This document shows positions 18,022-24,460 of a DNA stretch of 64,000 nt, piece after piece (position 1 is the stretch's first letter; every line of letters starts with the position of its first letter). Below the pieces are notes generated by a model that had not been told where the DNA came from, ran no database searches, and was given only the letters and a program-made list of their open reading frames with translations. The stretch lies in the NCBI RefSeq assembly GCF_900091515.1, contig NZ_LT607410.1, positions 2,666,001-2,730,000 of the forward strand, read 5' to 3'. The stretch is from Micromonospora purpureochromogenes (GTDB lineage Bacteria; Actinomycetota; Actinomycetes; Mycobacteriales; Micromonosporaceae). The position numbers and the translations under genes are program-made.

Positions 18022-20013
18022 ATGTCCAACCCGATGTCCGGTGGGGGCATGACCGGGTGGAGCATGCTCCGGTCGATGCGCAGCAGTGACGAGGTCTCCG
18101 CGCACCGGCTGAAGCGGGGCACCGCCCGGCGGATCGTCGCCTTCGCGGAGCCGTACCGGCGGGACATCGTCGTCTTCCTGGTCACGGTGGTGATCGCCGC
18201 GATCATCGGGGTGGCCACCCCGGTGCTGGCCGGAAAGGTCATCAACGCCATCACCCGGGGCGGCGCCGAGGCCGGGGCGATCGTGGTCCGCCTGGCGCTG
18301 GTGATCGCCGCGCTGGCGGTCGCCGACGCCCTCTTCTCCCTCGCCCAGCGGTGGTACTCGGCCCGCATCGGCGAGGGGATCATCCTCGACCTGCGCACCC
18401 GGGTCTACGACCACGTGCAGCGGATGCCGTTGCAGTTCTTCACCCGCACCCAGACCGGGGCCCTGGTCAGCCGGCTCAACAACGACGTGATGGGCGCCCA
18501 GCGGGCGTTCACCTCGACCCTCTCCGGGGTGGTCAGCAACGTCATCCAGCTGGTGCTGACCGCCGGGGTGATGTTCACCCTCTCCTGGCAGATCACCACG
18601 CTCTCGCTGATCCTGCTGCCGATCTTCATCATCCCGGCCCGGCGGGTCGGGAAGCGGCTGGCCGAGATCACCCGGGAGTCGTACAACCTCGACGCCAAGA
18701 TGAACGCGACGATGACCGAGCGGTTCGGCGTGGCCGGGGCGCTGCTGGTCAAGCTCTTCGGCTCGCCCGAGATCGAGGCCCGCCGCTTCGCCGGCCGGGC
18801 CGAGCGGGTCCGCGACATCGGCATCCAGTCGGCCATGTACTCGCGGACGTTCTTCGTGGCGATGCTGCTGGTCGCCTCGCTGGCCCAGGCGCTGACCTAC
18901 GGGCTCGGCGGCTGGCTGGCGGTCACCGGCGGGGTCAGCGCCGGCACGGTGGTCACCCTCGCGCTGCTGCTCACCCGCCTCTACGGCCCGCTGACCGCGC
19001 TGTCCAACGTCCGGGTGGACGTGATGAGCGCGCTGGTCTCCTTCGACCGGGTCTTCGAGGTGCTGGACCTGCGCCCCGGCATCGAGGAGAAGCCGGACGC
19101 GGTGCCGGTGCCGCGCGGCAACGGGCGGGTCGAGTTCCGCGACGTGCGGTTCCGCTACCCGGCCGCCGCCGAGGTGTCGCTGGCCTCGCTGGAGGAGGTC
19201 GCCACCCTGGACCGCACGGTCAACGAGCCGGTGCTCAAGGGTGTGTCGTTCACCGTCGAGCCGGGCCAGATGGTGGCCCTGGTCGGGCCCTCCGGCGCCG
19301 GCAAGTCGACGCTGTCCATGCTGATCTCCCGGATCTACGACGTCACCGACGGCGAGGTGCGGGTCGGCGGCGTGGACGTCCGCGACGCCACCCTCGCCTC
19401 GCTGCGCGACGAGATCGGCGTGGTCACCCAGGACTCGCACCTGTTCCACGAGACGATCGCCGAGAACCTGCGCTACGCCAAGCCGGACGCCACCGACGAC
19501 GAGATCTGGGCGGCGCTGGCCGGCGCGCAGGTCGCCGACCTGGTCCGGGCGCTGCCCGAGGGGCTGGAGACGATGGTCGGTGAGCGCGGCTACCGCTTCT
19601 CCGGCGGCGAGAAGCAGCGCATCGCCATCGCCCGGCTGCTGCTCAAGGCGCCGTCGATCGTGATCCTCGACGAGGCCACCGCCCACCTGGACTCGGAGAG
19701 CGAGGCCGCGGTGCAGCGGGCGCTGGCGGTCGCGCTGACCGGGCGTACCGCACTGGTCATCGCGCACCGGCTCTCCACGGTCCGCGACGCCGACCAGATC
19801 CTGGTCCTCGACGACGGCCGGATCGTGGAGCGGGGCCGGCACGAGGAGCTGGTCGCGGTCGGCGGGCTCTACGCCGAGCTGTACCGCACCCAGTTCGCGG
19901 TCGCCGACTCGCCGGCGCCCTATGCGGCGACGGAGCCCGAGCCGGTGATCACCACGGTGCCGCTGGGCACGTACGTCGCCCAGGAGGCGATGCCGCCGGC
20001 GGCGGCCAACTAG
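18022..20013 (+). CDS. ABC exporter half-transporter (permease plus ATPase)
   Basis: A 663-residue fused ABC transporter. The N-terminal ABC_membrane domain (residues 40-330, six helices) is followed by the nucleotide-binding domain: Walker A GPSGAGKST near residue 425, Q-loop VTQDSHLF, signature FSGGEKQRIAIAR near residue 530, Walker B IVILDEATAHLD, and H-loop IAHRLST. Such half-transporters act as dimers in multidrug or lipid export; the cargo is unknown. A strong GGAGGTGACC site precedes the ATG. The protein has a 45-residue Pro/Ala-rich tail. The stop codon lies in a short tandem duplication (20001-20034). Confidence 0.93.
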   Translation: MSNPMSGGGMTGWSMLRSMRSSDEVSAHRLKRGTARRIVAFAEPYRRDIVVFLVTVVIAAIIGVATPVLAGKVINAITRGGAEAGAIVVRLALVIAALAVADALFSLAQRWYSARIGEGIILDLRTRVYDHVQRMPLQFFTRTQTGALVSRLNNDVMGAQRAFTSTLSGVVSNVIQLVLTAGVMFTLSWQITTLSLILLPIFIIPARRVGKRLAEITRESYNLDAKMNATMTERFGVAGALLVKLFGSPEIEARRFAGRAERVRDIGIQSAMYSRTFFVAMLLVASLAQALTYGLGGWLAVTGGVSAGTVVTLALLLTRLYGPLTALSNVRVDVMSALVSFDRVFEVLDLRPGIEEKPDAVPVPRGNGRVEFRDVRFRYPAAAEVSLASLEEVATLDRTVNEPVLKGVSFTVEPGQMVALVGPSGAGKSTLSMLISRIYDVTDGEVRVGGVDVRDATLASLRDEIGVVTQDSHLFHETIAENLRYAKPDATDDEIWAALAGAQVADLVRALPEGLETMVGERGYRFSGGEKQRIAIARLLLKAPSIVILDEATAHLDSESEAAVQRALAVALTGRTALVIAHRLSTVRDADQILVLDDGRIVERGRHEELVAVGGLYAELYRTQFAVADSPAPYAATEPEPVITTVPLGTYVAQEAMPPAAAN

Positions 20014-20034: not shown

Positions 20035-20771
20035 GCGGCGGCCGCCCGCAGCTCCCCGAACGCCGCCCCGAGCGTCTCCGGGGTGAAGTGCGCGTTCAGG
20101 CCGCTCGGGTTCGGCAGCACCCAGAGCCGGGCGCCGGCCAGCGTCTCCGGCTGCGGGCCGAAATCGGCCTTCGGCCGGCCGAACCCGATCCGGTACGCGG
20201 TCACCCCGACCACCGCCACCCACGCCGGCCGGTAGTGGGCGACCTTGCCGGTCAGGATCTCCGCACCGGCCACCAGCTCCGCCGGGGTCAGCTCGTCGGC
20301 GCGGGCGCTGGCCCGGGCCACCATGTTGGTGATGCCCAGGCCGAGGCCGGGGAGCTGGTCCTGTTCGCTCGGGTGCAGCTGGCGGGGGGTGAAGCCGCCC
20401 CGGTGCAGCGCCGGCCAGAAGCGGTTGCCGGGTCGGGCGAAGTGCCAGCCGGTGGCCGCCGACCAGAGCCCGGGATTGATGCCGACGAAGAGCACGTCCA
20501 ACCCGGGCGCGATCAGATCCGGGAGGGTCCGGTCGACCGCGGCGGCCAACTCGTCCTTCGTCGGCCGCCCCATGCCGGAGGCCCCCCGCGGCGCGCCGGA
20601 GGCTTCCCGCGTCGCATCGGACGCCGCTGGCGTCGCGCCGGCGGGCGGCCGGGCGGCGGACGGCCCCGGCCGCCGGCCGGACTGATGGCCCCGTGGCCCG
20701 GACCCGGCCCGGGCAACCGGCCGGCCCGGCCGGGCACCGGCCGGGTCGTCGGAGCGGTCGGCGGGGCTCAC
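20028..20771 (-). CDS. mug: G/U mismatch-specific uracil-DNA glycosylase (Mug-like)
   Basis: A base-excision repair enzyme removing uracil or thymine opposite guanine. The uracil-DNA glycosylase fold has motif A as FVGINPGLWSAATGWHFARP, with the Mug-type GINPG, and motif B as LPNPSGLNAHF near the C terminus. The first 66 residues are a Gly/Pro/Arg/Ser-rich, probably disordered extension. GTG 20771 overlaps the TGA of the upstream SDR gene, supporting the long form; ATG 20573 (MGRPTKDEL) would give the typical Mug length of 181 residues and is a fair alternative. Confidence 0.88.
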   Translation of the reverse strand: MSPADRSDDPAGARPGRPVARAGSGPRGHQSGRRPGPSAARPPAGATPAASDATREASGAPRGASGMGRPTKDELAAAVDRTLPDLIAPGLDVLFVGINPGLWSAATGWHFARPGNRFWPALHRGGFTPRQLHPSEQDQLPGLGLGITNMVARASARADELTPAELVAGAEILTGKVAHYRPAWVAVVGVTAYRIGFGRPKADFGPQPETLAGARLWVLPNPSGLNAHFTPETLGAAFGELRAAAAG

Positions 20772-21529
20772 AGGCCGCGCAGCGCGCCGCCGTCGACCGG
20801 CACGGTGACACCGGTGACGTAGCTCGCGGCGGGGGAGAGCAGGAACGCGGCGACCCGCCCGAACTCCGCCGGATCACCGATCCGGCGCAGCGGGATGCCG
20901 GCCTCCGCCTCGGCCCGGGCCGCCTCGGCGTCCCCGGTGGCGGCGAAGAGTTCCCGGTTGCGGTCGGTCATGATCCGTCCGGGCAGCAGGCCGAGCACCC
21001 GCACGCCCCGCGGGCCGTACTCGTCGGCCATGTCCTTGGCCACCCCGGCCAGGCCGGGGCGCAGGCCGTTGGAGATGCCGAGGCCCGGCACCGGGCCGCG
21101 GGCCGAGGTGGAGAGCACCAGCCCGATCGCGCCGCCGTCGGTGAGCGCGCCGGCCACCGTACGGGCGGCGCGGACGCTGCCGAGGAAGACCGTCTCGAAG
21201 GACTGTCGCCACTGTTCGTCGGTCGCCTGGGCGGCGGTGCCGCGGGGCGGGCCGCCGACCGAGACCAGCGCGCCGTCCAGCCGGCCGAAGTGCTCCCGCG
21301 CCGCCACCACGAGCCGCTGCGGCGTCTCCGGGTCGGCCAGGTCGGCGGTGAGCCCGATGGCGTGCCGGGGACCGCCGAGCCGCTCGACGGCCTCGGCGAC
21401 GCGCTCGGGGGCACGGGCCGAGAGGACCACCCGTGCGCCGTCGGCCACGAGGCACTCGGCGGCGGCGAAGCCCAGGCCCCGGGAGGCGCCGGTCAGCACG
21501 TACACCCGGTCGGTGAGTCCGAGATCCAT
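20768..21529 (-). CDS. SDR family oxidoreductase
   Basis: A 253-residue short-chain dehydrogenase/reductase. The cofactor motif TGASRGLGFAAA is at residues 13-24. The acidic/basic pattern after beta-2 (LSARAPERVAE) suggests NADP(H). The canonical active site is altered: the usual Ser is in LVLSTSARGPVPG, but the usual YxxxK is replaced, as ISNGLRPGLAGVAKDMADEY carries Asn/Arg where Tyr is expected, with Lys four further on. It may thus be an atypical or non-dehydrogenase SDR. The C terminus YVTGVTVPVDGGALRGL is normal. The ATG is at 21529; the stop overlaps the glycosylase start (GTGA). Confidence 0.88.
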   Translation of the reverse strand: MDLGLTDRVYVLTGASRGLGFAAAECLVADGARVVLSARAPERVAEAVERLGGPRHAIGLTADLADPETPQRLVVAAREHFGRLDGALVSVGGPPRGTAAQATDEQWRQSFETVFLGSVRAARTVAGALTDGGAIGLVLSTSARGPVPGLGISNGLRPGLAGVAKDMADEYGPRGVRVLGLLPGRIMTDRNRELFAATGDAEAARAEAEAGIPLRRIGDPAEFGRVAAFLLSPAASYVTGVTVPVDGGALRGL

Positions 21530-21576: not shown

Positions 21577-22062
21577 TCAGCGCCGGGCGGGGCGCAGCAG
21601 GCGTACCCGACCGGCGAGCTGCACCGCGACGGCGCCGCCGGCGCGGGCGACGGCCGGCAGCCGGCGGGGTCGCGGCGCGTGGTGGCCGTCGTAGCGGCTG
21701 CCCGCCTCGCGGGCGACCAGCTCCTCGGCGCCGAGCGGGGGCAGCGTGCCCCGCTCGCGCAGCGTGCGGGCCAGGTCCCAGCCGTCGCGCAGCGCGCCGT
21801 TGGTGGGGCGGTCGGCCGCCCACTCGCGGAAGGTGGTCCACCAGGCGTCGCCGAGGGCGGCGGCGAGCAGCGGCCAGTGCCGGGCCACCTCGCCGGCGCG
21901 CTTGCCGAGCAGGGCGACCCGGGCGGCCCGCACCGGCCCGGGCGCGAAGCCGGCCGGCAGCGGCGCCCCGGCGACCAGCGCCGCCACCAGCGCCGCCTGC
22001 CGGGCGCCGAGTTCGCCGCCCGGCGCTGCGCCGGGCGGACCGGAGACCGTCCGGTCGCTCAC
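21577..22062 (-). CDS. DUF2063/SCO6045-like partner protein of the DUF692 enzyme
   Basis: A 161-residue protein without signal peptide or membrane segment. Residues 15-110 (RQAALVAALVAGAPLPAGF, then AARVALLGKRAGEVARHWPL and FREWAADRPTNGALRDGW) follow the pattern of the DUF2063-type N-terminal domain, the usual partner of DUF692 (MNIO) enzymes and thought to bind the precursor peptide. The C-terminal 50 residues are very basic (HHAPRPRRLP, VRLLRPARR). GTG 22062 overlaps the stop of the DUF692 gene (GTGA), so the two are coupled. The role is inferred from family and position; no substrate-binding residue can be proved from sequence alone. Confidence 0.7.
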   Translation of the reverse strand: MSDRTVSGPPGAAPGGELGARQAALVAALVAGAPLPAGFAPGPVRAARVALLGKRAGEVARHWPLLAAALGDAWWTTFREWAADRPTNGALRDGWDLARTLRERGTLPPLGAEELVAREAGSRYDGHHAPRPRRLPAVARAGGAVAVQLAGRVRLLRPARR

Positions 22063-22877
22063 GTGACCACCGGGAATCCGGAGGCGGCGGCGAGCGCGTC
22101 CAGCTCGGCCCGCAGGGCGGGCGCGGGCGGGTAGTGCCCGTCGCGTTCCAGCAGCAGCGCCGGGGGCCGGCGGCGCTCACAGAGCGCGCCGACCAGGTCG
22201 AGCACCTCCGGCGGCACCGGGTCGGTGTGCGTGTCGTGGTAGAAGCCGCCCCGCTCGGCACCGCCGGCCACGTGCACGTAGGCGACCCGGTCCAGCGGGA
22301 GCCGGTCGAGCAGGGCGAGCGGGTCGTCGCCCCGGTTGCGGGCGTTGGCGTGCACGTTGGCGACGTCGAGCAGCAGCGTGGCCCCGGTGGCGTCCAGGAT
22401 CTCGGTGAGGAAGTCCGCCTCGTCCAGCTCGTCGTCGGGCCAGTCGAAGAGCGCGGCGATCGGCTCCAGGGCGATCGGCACCGGCAGCTGCTCCTGCGCC
22501 CGCCGGACGTTGGCCGCCACCGCGGCCACCGCCTCCCGGCTGCGCGGCAGCGGCAGCAGGTGGCCGGCCTCCAGGCCGCCGGCCCGGACGAACGCGATGT
22601 GCTCGCTGACCAGCGGCGCGTCGAGGAGTTCGGCGACCCGGGCCAGGTGGGTCACCCGGGCCGGGTCGACCGGTTCCGCGCCGCCGAGGGAGAGCCGCAC
22701 CCCGTGCGGTACGACCGTGACGTCGCGCCCGCGCAGCTCGGCCAGCCCCGGCGGGAGCGAACCCGTCGACGGGATCGACTCGGCCACCACCTCGACGAAG
22801 CGCAGTCCGGGCAGCTCGGCGACGAATCCGGCGATCTCCGGCCGCCAGCCGATGCCCACCCCGCTCGGACCGGTCAT
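22059..22877 (-). CDS. DUF692 multinuclear non-heme iron-dependent oxidase (MNIO)
   Basis: A 272-residue TIM-barrel protein of the DUF692 family (MbnB, TglH, BufB relatives), which use two or three iron ions and oxygen to modify cysteine-containing peptides. Expected metal-ligand segments are all present in order: PHGVRLSLG (His), SEHIAFV (Glu-His), ALEPIAALF (Glu), LLLDVANVHANA (Asp, Asn, His), VAYVHVAGG (His), YHDTHTDPV (Asp-His) and LLERDGHYP (Glu-Asp). ATG 22877 overlaps the stop of the upstream membrane-protein gene (ATGA) and the stop overlaps the next gene (GTGA). A tight three-gene operon with a Cys-rich protein suggests the latter is its substrate. Confidence 0.9.
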   Translation of the reverse strand: MTGPSGVGIGWRPEIAGFVAELPGLRFVEVVAESIPSTGSLPPGLAELRGRDVTVVPHGVRLSLGGAEPVDPARVTHLARVAELLDAPLVSEHIAFVRAGGLEAGHLLPLPRSREAVAAVAANVRRAQEQLPVPIALEPIAALFDWPDDELDEADFLTEILDATGATLLLDVANVHANARNRGDDPLALLDRLPLDRVAYVHVAGGAERGGFYHDTHTDPVPPEVLDLVGALCERRRPPALLLERDGHYPPAPALRAELDALAAASGFPVVT

Positions 22878-23782
22878 CCGCCGCACCCACCGCCGCCGCC
22901 GCACCCACCACCACCGCCGCCGCAGGAGCTGCCGCCGCCACCGCAGGAACTGCCGCCGCCACAGGAGCCGCCGCCAGTGCCACCGCTGCTGTTCAGCGCC
23001 TGCCGCTGGATCTCCGCCTGCTCGGCGAAGCCCGGGTCCAGGGCCCAGAGCGAGGCGGTGCCGAACAGCGCGACCCCCATGGCCGCCCCGGCCGCGCCGT
23101 AGGTGGCGTAGGCGGGTGCGGACGCGGGGGAGAGGTGGATGTTGCTCTGGCGCAGCTCGCGCAGCGTGGCGTCGGCCGCCCGGGTCCGCCACGGCACCCG
23201 GGAGAGCAGCACCAGCGGGACGATCAGGGCGAGGACGGCGAGCAGCAGGAAGCCGACCGGTCGGTCGTTGGCCAGCCCGGCGGCGATCCGGGCCGCGCCG
23301 AGCGCCATCAGGGCGAGCACCAGCCACGCGCCGCGCCGGGCCGCCGTGCGCTGCTCGGGGTGCAGCGCCAGGCCCTGCCGTTGCAGGCCCTCGCGCAGCT
23401 CGGTGAGGGCGCGGGACACCCGCTGCTCGCGGGCCAGCTCCCGGGTGTGCAGGTGGTTGCGGGCGGCGTGGTGAACCGCCTGGTCGAGCGGGGTGACGCC
23501 GCTGGGCAGGGGGCCCCCGGTGGTGAGGCGCCGGTCGGGACGCACCCCGACCGCGCCGCAGCCGCGCAGGCCGCCCAGCGCCGTCCAGATCGCGAGCTGG
23601 TCGCCGCCGTTGAGGTACGCGACCTGCTGCGGCCCGAGCTGGCCGGTCCCGGCCGCCGGCTGCCCGGCGAGGATCCGGGACCGGTACACGATCGAGCCGA
23701 CGACGACCACCAGGGCCGCCAGCAGATAGAACCGGAGGAACGTCGGGCCGGAAATGCCCCAGGTGTCGGCCGCCAGCATCAT
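22874..23782 (-). CDS. TIGR04222-type membrane protein with Gly/Cys-rich tail (candidate MNIO substrate)
   Basis: A 302-residue protein. A first hydrophobic helix (about 13-33) is followed by a soluble domain with a GGDQLAIWTALGGL segment, then two adjacent helices (about 172-215) and one further hydrophobic stretch (about 245-265). The last 40 residues are almost only Gly, Ser and Cys: five cysteines, spaced by GGGSS, GGGGSS, GGGGGG and GGGGG. This is the architecture of the TIGR04222 family. ATG 23782 is preceded by AGGAG. The tail may be where the coupled DUF692 enzyme acts. The function of the membrane part is unknown. Confidence 0.8.
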   Translation of the reverse strand: MMLAADTWGISGPTFLRFYLLAALVVVVGSIVYRSRILAGQPAAGTGQLGPQQVAYLNGGDQLAIWTALGGLRGCGAVGVRPDRRLTTGGPLPSGVTPLDQAVHHAARNHLHTRELAREQRVSRALTELREGLQRQGLALHPEQRTAARRGAWLVLALMALGAARIAAGLANDRPVGFLLLAVLALIVPLVLLSRVPWRTRAADATLRELRQSNIHLSPASAPAYATYGAAGAAMGVALFGTASLWALDPGFAEQAEIQRQALNSSGGTGGGSCGGGSSCGGGGSSCGGGGGGCGGGGGCGG

Positions 23783-23887
23783 GGCTCTGCTCCTGTCACG
23801 CGAGGGGATCGCGGCCTCATTGTGGAGCAGGGCCGCCACGCGCCGACCGCCGTGCGGGCCGAGTTACCAAGCCGAAACGTCCGGCGG

Positions 23888-24460
23888 TCAGCGCCGGCGT
23901 ACGGCCTCCTCGACCAGGTCCAGCACCGGGCCCAGGTCGCCGGCCGGCCGGCCCATCGCCAGGTGCAGCACCAGGCCGTCGTACGCCAACTCCAGGAACT
24001 GGGCCAGCACGTCGATCGGGACGTCCTCGCGGAGCACCCCGGCCTCCCGCTGCCGGACCAGCCGGTCCCGAGTGGCCTCGGCGATGGCGGCCGAGCGCTC
24101 GGCCCAGCGGCGGGCGAACGCCGGGTCGGTGCGCAGCCGGCGGGAGACCTCCAGCTGGCTGCCCAGCCAGCCGGTGGTGTCGGGGGAGATCGCCCGGGCC
24201 AGCAGGTCCCGCATGACCTGGACGAGGCCGTTGCGGGCCACGGTCTCCACCATGGCCGCCGCGTCGTCCTCGGCGACGGCGAGGAAGAGCGAGTCCTTGT
24301 CCCGGAAGTGGTGGAAGATGGCGCCCCGGGACAGCCGGGTGGCCTCCTCCAGCCGGCGCACGGTGGCTCCCTCGTAGCCGTGCCGGGCGAAACAGGCCCG
24401 CGCCGCGGCAAGGATCTCCTGTCGGCGCGCGTCGAGCTGGTCCTGACTTACTCTGGGCAC
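23888..24460 (-). CDS. acnR: TetR-family regulator, AcnR-like (aconitase repressor)
   Basis: A 190-residue TetR/AcrR regulator. The N-terminal HTH reads ILAAARACFARHGYEGATVR then RLEEATRLSRGAIFHHFRDK. The whole protein, from MPRVSQDQLDARRQEIL to the end LDLVEEAVRRR, follows the AcnR family (C. glutamicum AcnR, M. tuberculosis Rv1474c as I remember them), which represses the aconitase gene and senses citrate/Mg. In those genomes acnR adjoins acn; here aconitase is 13 kb away (37811-40645). The start is GTG. An 18-bp motif with a perfect 12-bp palindrome lies 34 bases upstream and recurs upstream of acnA. Confidence 0.82.
   Translation of the reverse strand: MPRVSQDQLDARRQEILAAARACFARHGYEGATVRRLEEATRLSRGAIFHHFRDKDSLFLAVAEDDAAAMVETVARNGLVQVMRDLLARAISPDTTGWLGSQLEVSRRLRTDPAFARRWAERSAAIAEATRDRLVRQREAGVLREDVPIDVLAQFLELAYDGLVLHLAMGRPAGDLGPVLDLVEEAVRRR

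Follow-up and report, generated by a model that had tools for sequence, protein, structure and literature searches.

As far as their accessible text goes, PMC13097082 and PMC13419390 describe MNIOs, related to the one considered here, that convert the cysteines of EGKCG repeats to copper-binding 5-thiooxazoles. Closest to our locus are the clusters of Antoine et al. (2025; PMC12452194), whose accessible text already proposes the tail cysteines of TIGR04222 proteins as MNIO substrates, with an example from Micromonospora. According to the same text, 40% of the over 1,000 Cys proteins that lack a signal peptide and whose genes precede an MNIO gene are TIGR04222 proteins, more than one-fourth of TIGR04222 proteins have no C-proximal Cys, and one-third of the TIGR04222 genomes have no MNIO; the available parts of the paper contain no test of whether these two absences coincide. 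They also name a model of a 300-residue TIGR04222 protein of M. purpureochromogenes with a Cys tail and term a 158-residue partner from M. matsumotoense "PME-type 2" (PMC12452194). Hence, the idea of the tail as a substrate is not new but dates at least from that 2025 paper.

The window analyzed here—64,000 nucleotides of M. purpureochromogenes, contig NZ_LT607410.1, positions 2,666,001 to 2,730,000—contains three minus-strand genes that, as read in the sequence, overlap by ATGA and GTGA: a TIGR04222 membrane protein of 302 residues (23782–22874), an MNIO of 272 residues (22877–22059), and a partner of 161 residues (22062–21577), with gene starts taken from a simple purpose-made caller. Upstream of the operon lies a promoter-like stretch on the same strand, CTGCTCCACAATGAGG (23815–23830), which is likely to act as a promoter element; its CTGCTCCACAATG is conserved when 55 upstream regions, that of the window included, are aligned. 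The coupling of the three genes claimed by the original prediction is thus plainly visible, and it extends well beyond this genome. An MNIO is present at the loci of 62 of the 66 named relatives, and at the other four the contig stops no more than two bases from the TIGR04222 frame; the partner is present at 59, and at the remaining seven the contig stops within 1 kb. As MNIO and partner are kept at nearly all of these loci and contig ends explain the exceptions, the three-gene arrangement is not a matter of chance. At E ≤ 0.001, the M. purpureochromogenes genome (one contig, 6.67 Mb) yields a single match each for PF05114 and TIGR04222, and the two lie in this operon. Over 87% of its length, the TIGR04222 protein of the window shows 95% identity to P0121, an M. 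purpureochromogenes protein; it may correspond to the published model.

The MNIO (DUF692) scores 263 bits against PF05114, whose cut-off is 25, and its structure matches are TglH (8hci_D) and the DUF692 structure 3bww. H53, E87, H88, E133, D166, N169, H197, D210, H212, and E239 (numbered along the aligned slice) are all present in the window enzyme and kept in 92 to 100% of 73 MNIO sequences; we take these residues to be metal ligands, in keeping with the motifs originally predicted. The closest NCBIfam model is BufB, whose equivalog cut-off of 310 the enzyme misses with 180.5 bits. A different group of MNIOs, with 367 to 370 bits to PF05114, was seen at three loci (L210 in G649, L211 in G610, and L212 in G590), with neither a partner match nor a Cys-Gly tail found within 3 kb.

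The 161-residue partner had been described as DUF2063-like. This description suits its predicted fold, whose best matches are TglI and MbnC, but not its sequence, which has no Pfam or NCBIfam match at E ≤ 1 in the libraries scanned; DUF2063, the signature of PME-type 1, is likewise absent from the partner alignment of 33 relatives. Its gene lies beside that of the MNIO, and with the absent DUF2063 signature and a fold related to NGO1945/TglI, it agrees with PME-type 2. The 120 partner relatives listed carry a precomputed Pfam assignment, PF26136, and some of them are named "SCO6045-like C-terminal domain-containing protein" at source. In 44 of 89 partnered MNIO genes, the partner is fused to the MNIO, and because of the fold match and these natural fusions, the 161-residue protein looks like a true MNIO partner. 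SCO6045 itself—reported in the accessible text of PMC4991794 to be up 3.0-fold under oxidative stress in S. coelicolor—would, judging by the family name, be such an MNIO–partner fusion.

The first gene of the operon encodes a protein that exceeds the cut-off of the NCBIfam profile TIGR04222 by far (170 versus 43 bits) and ends in SCGGGSSCGGGGSSCGGGGGGCGGGGGCGG with five cysteines, so that the predicted membrane protein with a five-Cys Gly/Ser tail is indeed found. The Gly/Ser-rich tail, whose last residues are CGG and which is the proposed MNIO substrate, is encoded at 22877–22966 on the minus strand. No Pfam family matches this protein at E ≤ 1, and the DUF2282 signature of bufferin precursors is accordingly not seen in it. 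AlphaFold2 (AF2) places helices at residues 12–39, 142–171, and 177–194 and gives the tail, residues 267–302, a pLDDT below 50 with the exception of residue 285, that is, a disordered stretch. The predicted layout runs from an outward N-terminus over TM1, a GPP34-like loop domain, a TM2–TM3 hairpin, and short helices to the disordered tail, the charge pattern of TM1 suggesting an N-out anchor. The loop domain probably contains a GPP34/GOLPH3-like domain, and TIGR04222 is remotely related to the C-terminal domain of DUF2207 proteins (L019–L030); a literature search found no publication mentioning any two of TIGR04222, DUF2207, and GPP34. At the end of the tail, C300-G301-G302 are invariant across 32 aligned sequences, of which two extend beyond them. 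Across 131 distinct tails, Gly follows Cys in 84% of 612 cases, compared with a Gly share of 47% in the tails; the most frequent Cys–Cys spacing is six, and 88 tails end in GCGG.

The relation between these cysteines and the MNIO was assessed in a class sample of 394 genomes, which were searched with TIGR04222 and with PF05114 and whose loci were fetched. About seven first-look candidates were scored per genome in the TIGR04222 search, and some copies may be missed. With frames cut by contig ends excluded, 137 distinct TIGR04222 proteins from 108 genomes were classified; a Gly/Ser tail was defined by at least 45% Gly+Ser in the last 40 residues and MNIO linkage by the same strand within 3.5 kb. 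The tail cysteines, rather than the Gly/Ser tail itself, follow the MNIO: of 81 Gly/Ser tails, those with at least two Cys are MNIO-linked in 58 of 66 cases, those with fewer in none of 15 (Fisher p 6e-11, a value inflated by relatedness). In the full table of 137 proteins, 58 Cys-tailed ones are linked and 8 unlinked, against 22 and 49 of the others. Among the 15 Gly/Ser tails with fewer than two Cys, twelve are Cys-free and nine have an Asp end, and Asp makes up 7.7% of unlinked versus 2.8% of linked Gly/Ser tails.

Five of the eight unlinked Cys tails belong to genus g295, where the Cys-tailed TIGR04222 gene lies far from the MNIO, and one each to G607, G714, and G542. All seven genomes of g295, G607, and G714 carry an MNIO elsewhere; the eighth case, G542, is an ORF end unlike a real tail. 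Counted by genome, PF05114 occurs in 59 of the 61 that encode a Cys-tailed TIGR04222 protein, compared with 94 of 394 overall and 20 of 47 whose TIGR04222 copies are all Cys-less. The two exceptions among the 61 are G542 and G462; in the latter, the contig begins within an MNIO match, which is therefore short (36 bits). For Cys-tailed TIGR04222 members, these counts rule out a family-wide absence of linkage between the tail and DUF692. A tree-corrected test points in the same direction. It used a quickly built tree of 132 domain sequences from which the tail had been removed (five of the 137 proteins being too short or weak); among the seven independent, well-supported pairs with a difference in MNIO linkage, about 3.5 agree, none disagrees, and 3.5 show no difference in Cys, and a sign test on these seven pairs does not reach significance.

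Several loci depart from the simple arrangement. L154 (G600) holds one MNIO together with three Cys-tailed TIGR04222 copies. In G427 (L181 4220–5236 and L270), a Cys-tailed TIGR04222 protein runs into what appears by eye to be a partner remnant, with no MNIO near and a partial MNIO match elsewhere in the genome; this looks like operon decay. A fusion of MNIO and TIGR04222 was considered and rejected, no single frame containing both. At L078 (4965–8015), TIGR04222, partner, and SDR-like sequence share one stop-free frame; a true TIGR04222–partner fusion was rejected here, with the expected stop codons absent, and the single frame probably reflects a sequence error in the low-complexity tail.

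Twenty-two MNIO-linked proteins come without a called Cys tail: 18 from a tail-less clade, two from G600, and one each from G307 and G540. The two G600 proteins do carry Cys tails, which fall below the Gly/Ser threshold, and in G540 (L157) the MNIO adjoins a Gly tail without Cys. The clade corresponds to genus g7, which appears Streptomyces-like by architecture. Many of its genomes bear an MNIO–partner fusion and a TIGR04222 protein that ends without a Gly/Cys tail, and some of the loci in addition a DUF4142 gene and a PTH2 gene; L240, L242, L239, L220, and L237 show such fusions beside tail-less TIGR04222, with a DUF4142-like gene in L240 and L237. In the accessible text of PMC12452194, an "adjamnio-II - MNIO - TIGR04222" type resembles this arrangement. 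The conserved His/Asp/Glu/Asn set is complete in 15 aligned MNIO sequences from these tail-less loci. Of the 18 genomes in which a tail-less TIGR04222 protein is MNIO-linked, only 5 also encode a Cys-tailed copy, and 13 have none. A deeper search of 21 tail-less-clade or related genomes, with 24 TIGR04222 matches, found a multi-Cys Gly/Ser tail only in G714, where it is unlinked; G161, G182, G246, and G334 have a second, unlinked TIGR04222 protein with a single Cys near its end. The g7 MNIOs may thus have a different substrate, the single-Cys copies may take the role of the tail, or a carrier other than TIGR04222 may bear a tail that escaped the search. This Streptomyces-like clade is the strongest counter-example to the tail being the substrate.

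Tails of the same kind also occur on other proteins. At eleven MNIO-plus-partner loci without a TIGR04222 match, twelve ORFs end in such a tail. Ten of these are short single-span proteins, several of them near-copies, with four to seven K/R in the 20 residues after the span and none or one before it; the other two, frames of 452 and 476 residues, have no strong span and no Pfam match at E ≤ 0.01. Among the 12 non-TIGR carriers accepted by a strict tail detector, one (L225) resembles a TIGR04222 fragment; a second candidate frame at L255 (6955–8262) was left out of the carrier analysis, and some of the small carriers may be the adjamnio-V of Antoine et al., as far as described in the accessible text (PMC12452194). 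Overall, a tail protein is encoded no more than 3 kb away on the same strand for 61 of the 89 partnered MNIO genes, in 49 cases a TIGR04222 protein, whereas the opposite strand offers none. Of the 28 that are tail-less by the detector, L229 and L254 do have Cys tails (as L046 and L048), and L231 has one that is cut by the contig end. The controls were 56 loci without an MNIO; of their 5112 ORFs, the strict detector accepts 3, each a TIGR04222 protein in an MNIO genome, and it overlooked four short Cys tails there, also in MNIO genomes. Maybe, evolution has used the Gly/Ser/Cys tail as a movable MNIO tag, facing the cytosol and attached to unrelated carriers (three-span TIGR04222, short single-span proteins, and proteins without a span), which the enzyme–partner pair—sometimes fused, sometimes in trans—modifies into a never-released metallophore brush tethered at the inner side of the membrane; we put this forward tentatively, at somewhat less than even odds.

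Our main reading, to which we assign a probability of about 0.6, is that MNIO and partner oxidize the cysteines of a cytosolic, uncleaved TIGR04222 tail, which may bind a soft metal. The operon would give rise to a three-span membrane protein with a flexible C-terminal Gly/Ser/Cys tail hanging into the cytoplasm. The partner, by its fold a relative of TglI and MbnC, would dock this tail on the iron-dependent MNIO, which would oxidize tail cysteines in Cys-Gly contexts, with tail and enzyme in the same compartment and the protein in the membrane. The product would probably be 5-thiooxazoles or a related heterocycle, and the tail, left uncut, would form a brush anchored in the membrane, with copper or a different soft metal as its possible ligand. 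The gene set with its conservation, the Cys–MNIO co-occurrence, the partner's fold match and fusions, and the similar tails on unrelated carriers are observed and the cytosolic side is predicted, whereas modification, product chemistry, and metal role are inferred; a 5-thiooxazole product with copper binding would follow by analogy with the related MNIOs. The original claim that the MNIO modifies the tail cysteines gains from the Cys–MNIO co-occurrence, the partner fold, and the fusions, whereas the one clade that keeps its MNIO without a Cys tail speaks against it.

The original prediction had the tail displayed by the membrane; it does sit on a membrane protein, but the side of display has to be revised. 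In 123 of 125 Cys-tailed proteins, K/R density is greater on the inside flanks, giving N outside and C inside over three strong spans (class proteins below 90 bits were excluded from this profile, as were named ones below 200 bits or without tail Cys). The ten single-span carriers are all C-in by charge as well, and a strong span is missing from two carrier frames. GPP34/GOLPH3, which the loop domain resembles, is a cytosolic family. Charge and hydropathy thus indicate that the Cys tail probably faces the cytoplasm and not the periplasm. That the tail is an MNIO substrate located outside the membrane, as in bufferins, agrees with the topology statement in the accessible text of Antoine et al. 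(PMC12452194) and with a fourth hydrophobic segment, which reaches KD ≥ 1.6 in only 15 of the 125 proteins and which AF2 splits into short helices; we regard this placement as rather improbable.

A rival explanation is that MNIO and partner act on some other substrate, the Cys tail being unmodified, metal- or disulfide-forming, and merely co-regulated. The MNIO–partner fusion retained without a Cys tail in the Streptomyces-like clade and the Cys-less tail beside the MNIO of L157 fit such a scenario, and we have given it more weight because 13 of the 18 genomes with linked tail-less proteins have no Cys-tailed copy. It accounts less readily for the fact that Cys and not the Gly/Ser tail as such tracks the MNIO, for the same kind of tail on unrelated carriers at MNIO loci, and for real unlinked Cys tails occurring in genomes that possess an MNIO; we consider it unlikely, though credible. 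Cleavage and release are the usual fate of RiPP cores, and the tail, disordered as it is in AF2, might likewise be a precursor that is cut off and released after modification. However, the neighbors of the operon are a TetR regulator, an SDR, and a carbon-nitrogen hydrolase, with no protease among those scanned in the window, and an ABC transporter gene (18022–20013, plus strand), also within the fetched loci of 50 of the 66 named relatives, lies on the opposite strand; release is accordingly quite improbable. Metal-specific genes were not found among the scanned neighbors in the window either. In the fetched loci of the 66 relatives, the SDR (20768–21529 in the window) recurs in 54 and the TetR regulator (23888–24460) in 65, both on the minus strand of the window.

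If oxidation of a cytosolic, uncleaved tail is correct, MNIOs would also modify proteins via a short tag that ends membrane proteins, beyond peptide natural products, and the rule for such a tag, namely Cys-Gly within a flexible Gly/Ser tail, would lend itself to direct testing and could help to install metal-binding heterocycles on proteins of choice. With the tail in the cytosol, the export problem posed by a periplasmic one would in addition disappear, and a role in handling metals at the inner face of the membrane would be suggested.

How does the operon compare with known systems? The bufferins and captophorins (BufABC, HvfABC, and FonABC) likewise combine a PF05114 MNIO with an RRE-type partner, and the Cys-Gly of their EGKCG substrates, as given in the accessible text of PMC13097082, is like that of the window tail. 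Unlike in bufferins, the window operon stays below the BufB cut-off, lacks DUF2282 and DUF2063, and has a polytopic membrane protein as its proposed substrate. TglHI and MbnBC act on short peptides according to the source text available (TglA has 50 residues) and differ in the same respect; the window partner is also shorter than the TglI chain, with 161 versus 268 residues. DUF2207 C-terminal domain proteins, remote homologs by PF20990 matches in 12 of 32 relatives at E ≤ 1 (best 2.2e-5), likewise bear Gly-rich C-terminal tails; the ORFs that we call DUF2207-like (L019–L030) have no Cys in their last 60 residues and mostly end in GGGGSW, unlike the TIGR04222 tail. Closest are the TIGR04222–MNIO–PME-type 2 clusters, which, in the accessible text of PMC12452194, share the components, the genus among the examples, and the tail-Cys hypothesis. 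To these, we add the test of Cys–MNIO co-occurrence, natural fusions between the MNIO and this type of partner, tails of similar make-up that end unrelated carriers, and a tail predicted to be cytosolic instead of periplasmic. The operon is a well-conserved member of a class so far proposed in print; the new evidence strengthens the claim that the tail is a substrate, changes the one on its location, and makes the tag idea open to testing.
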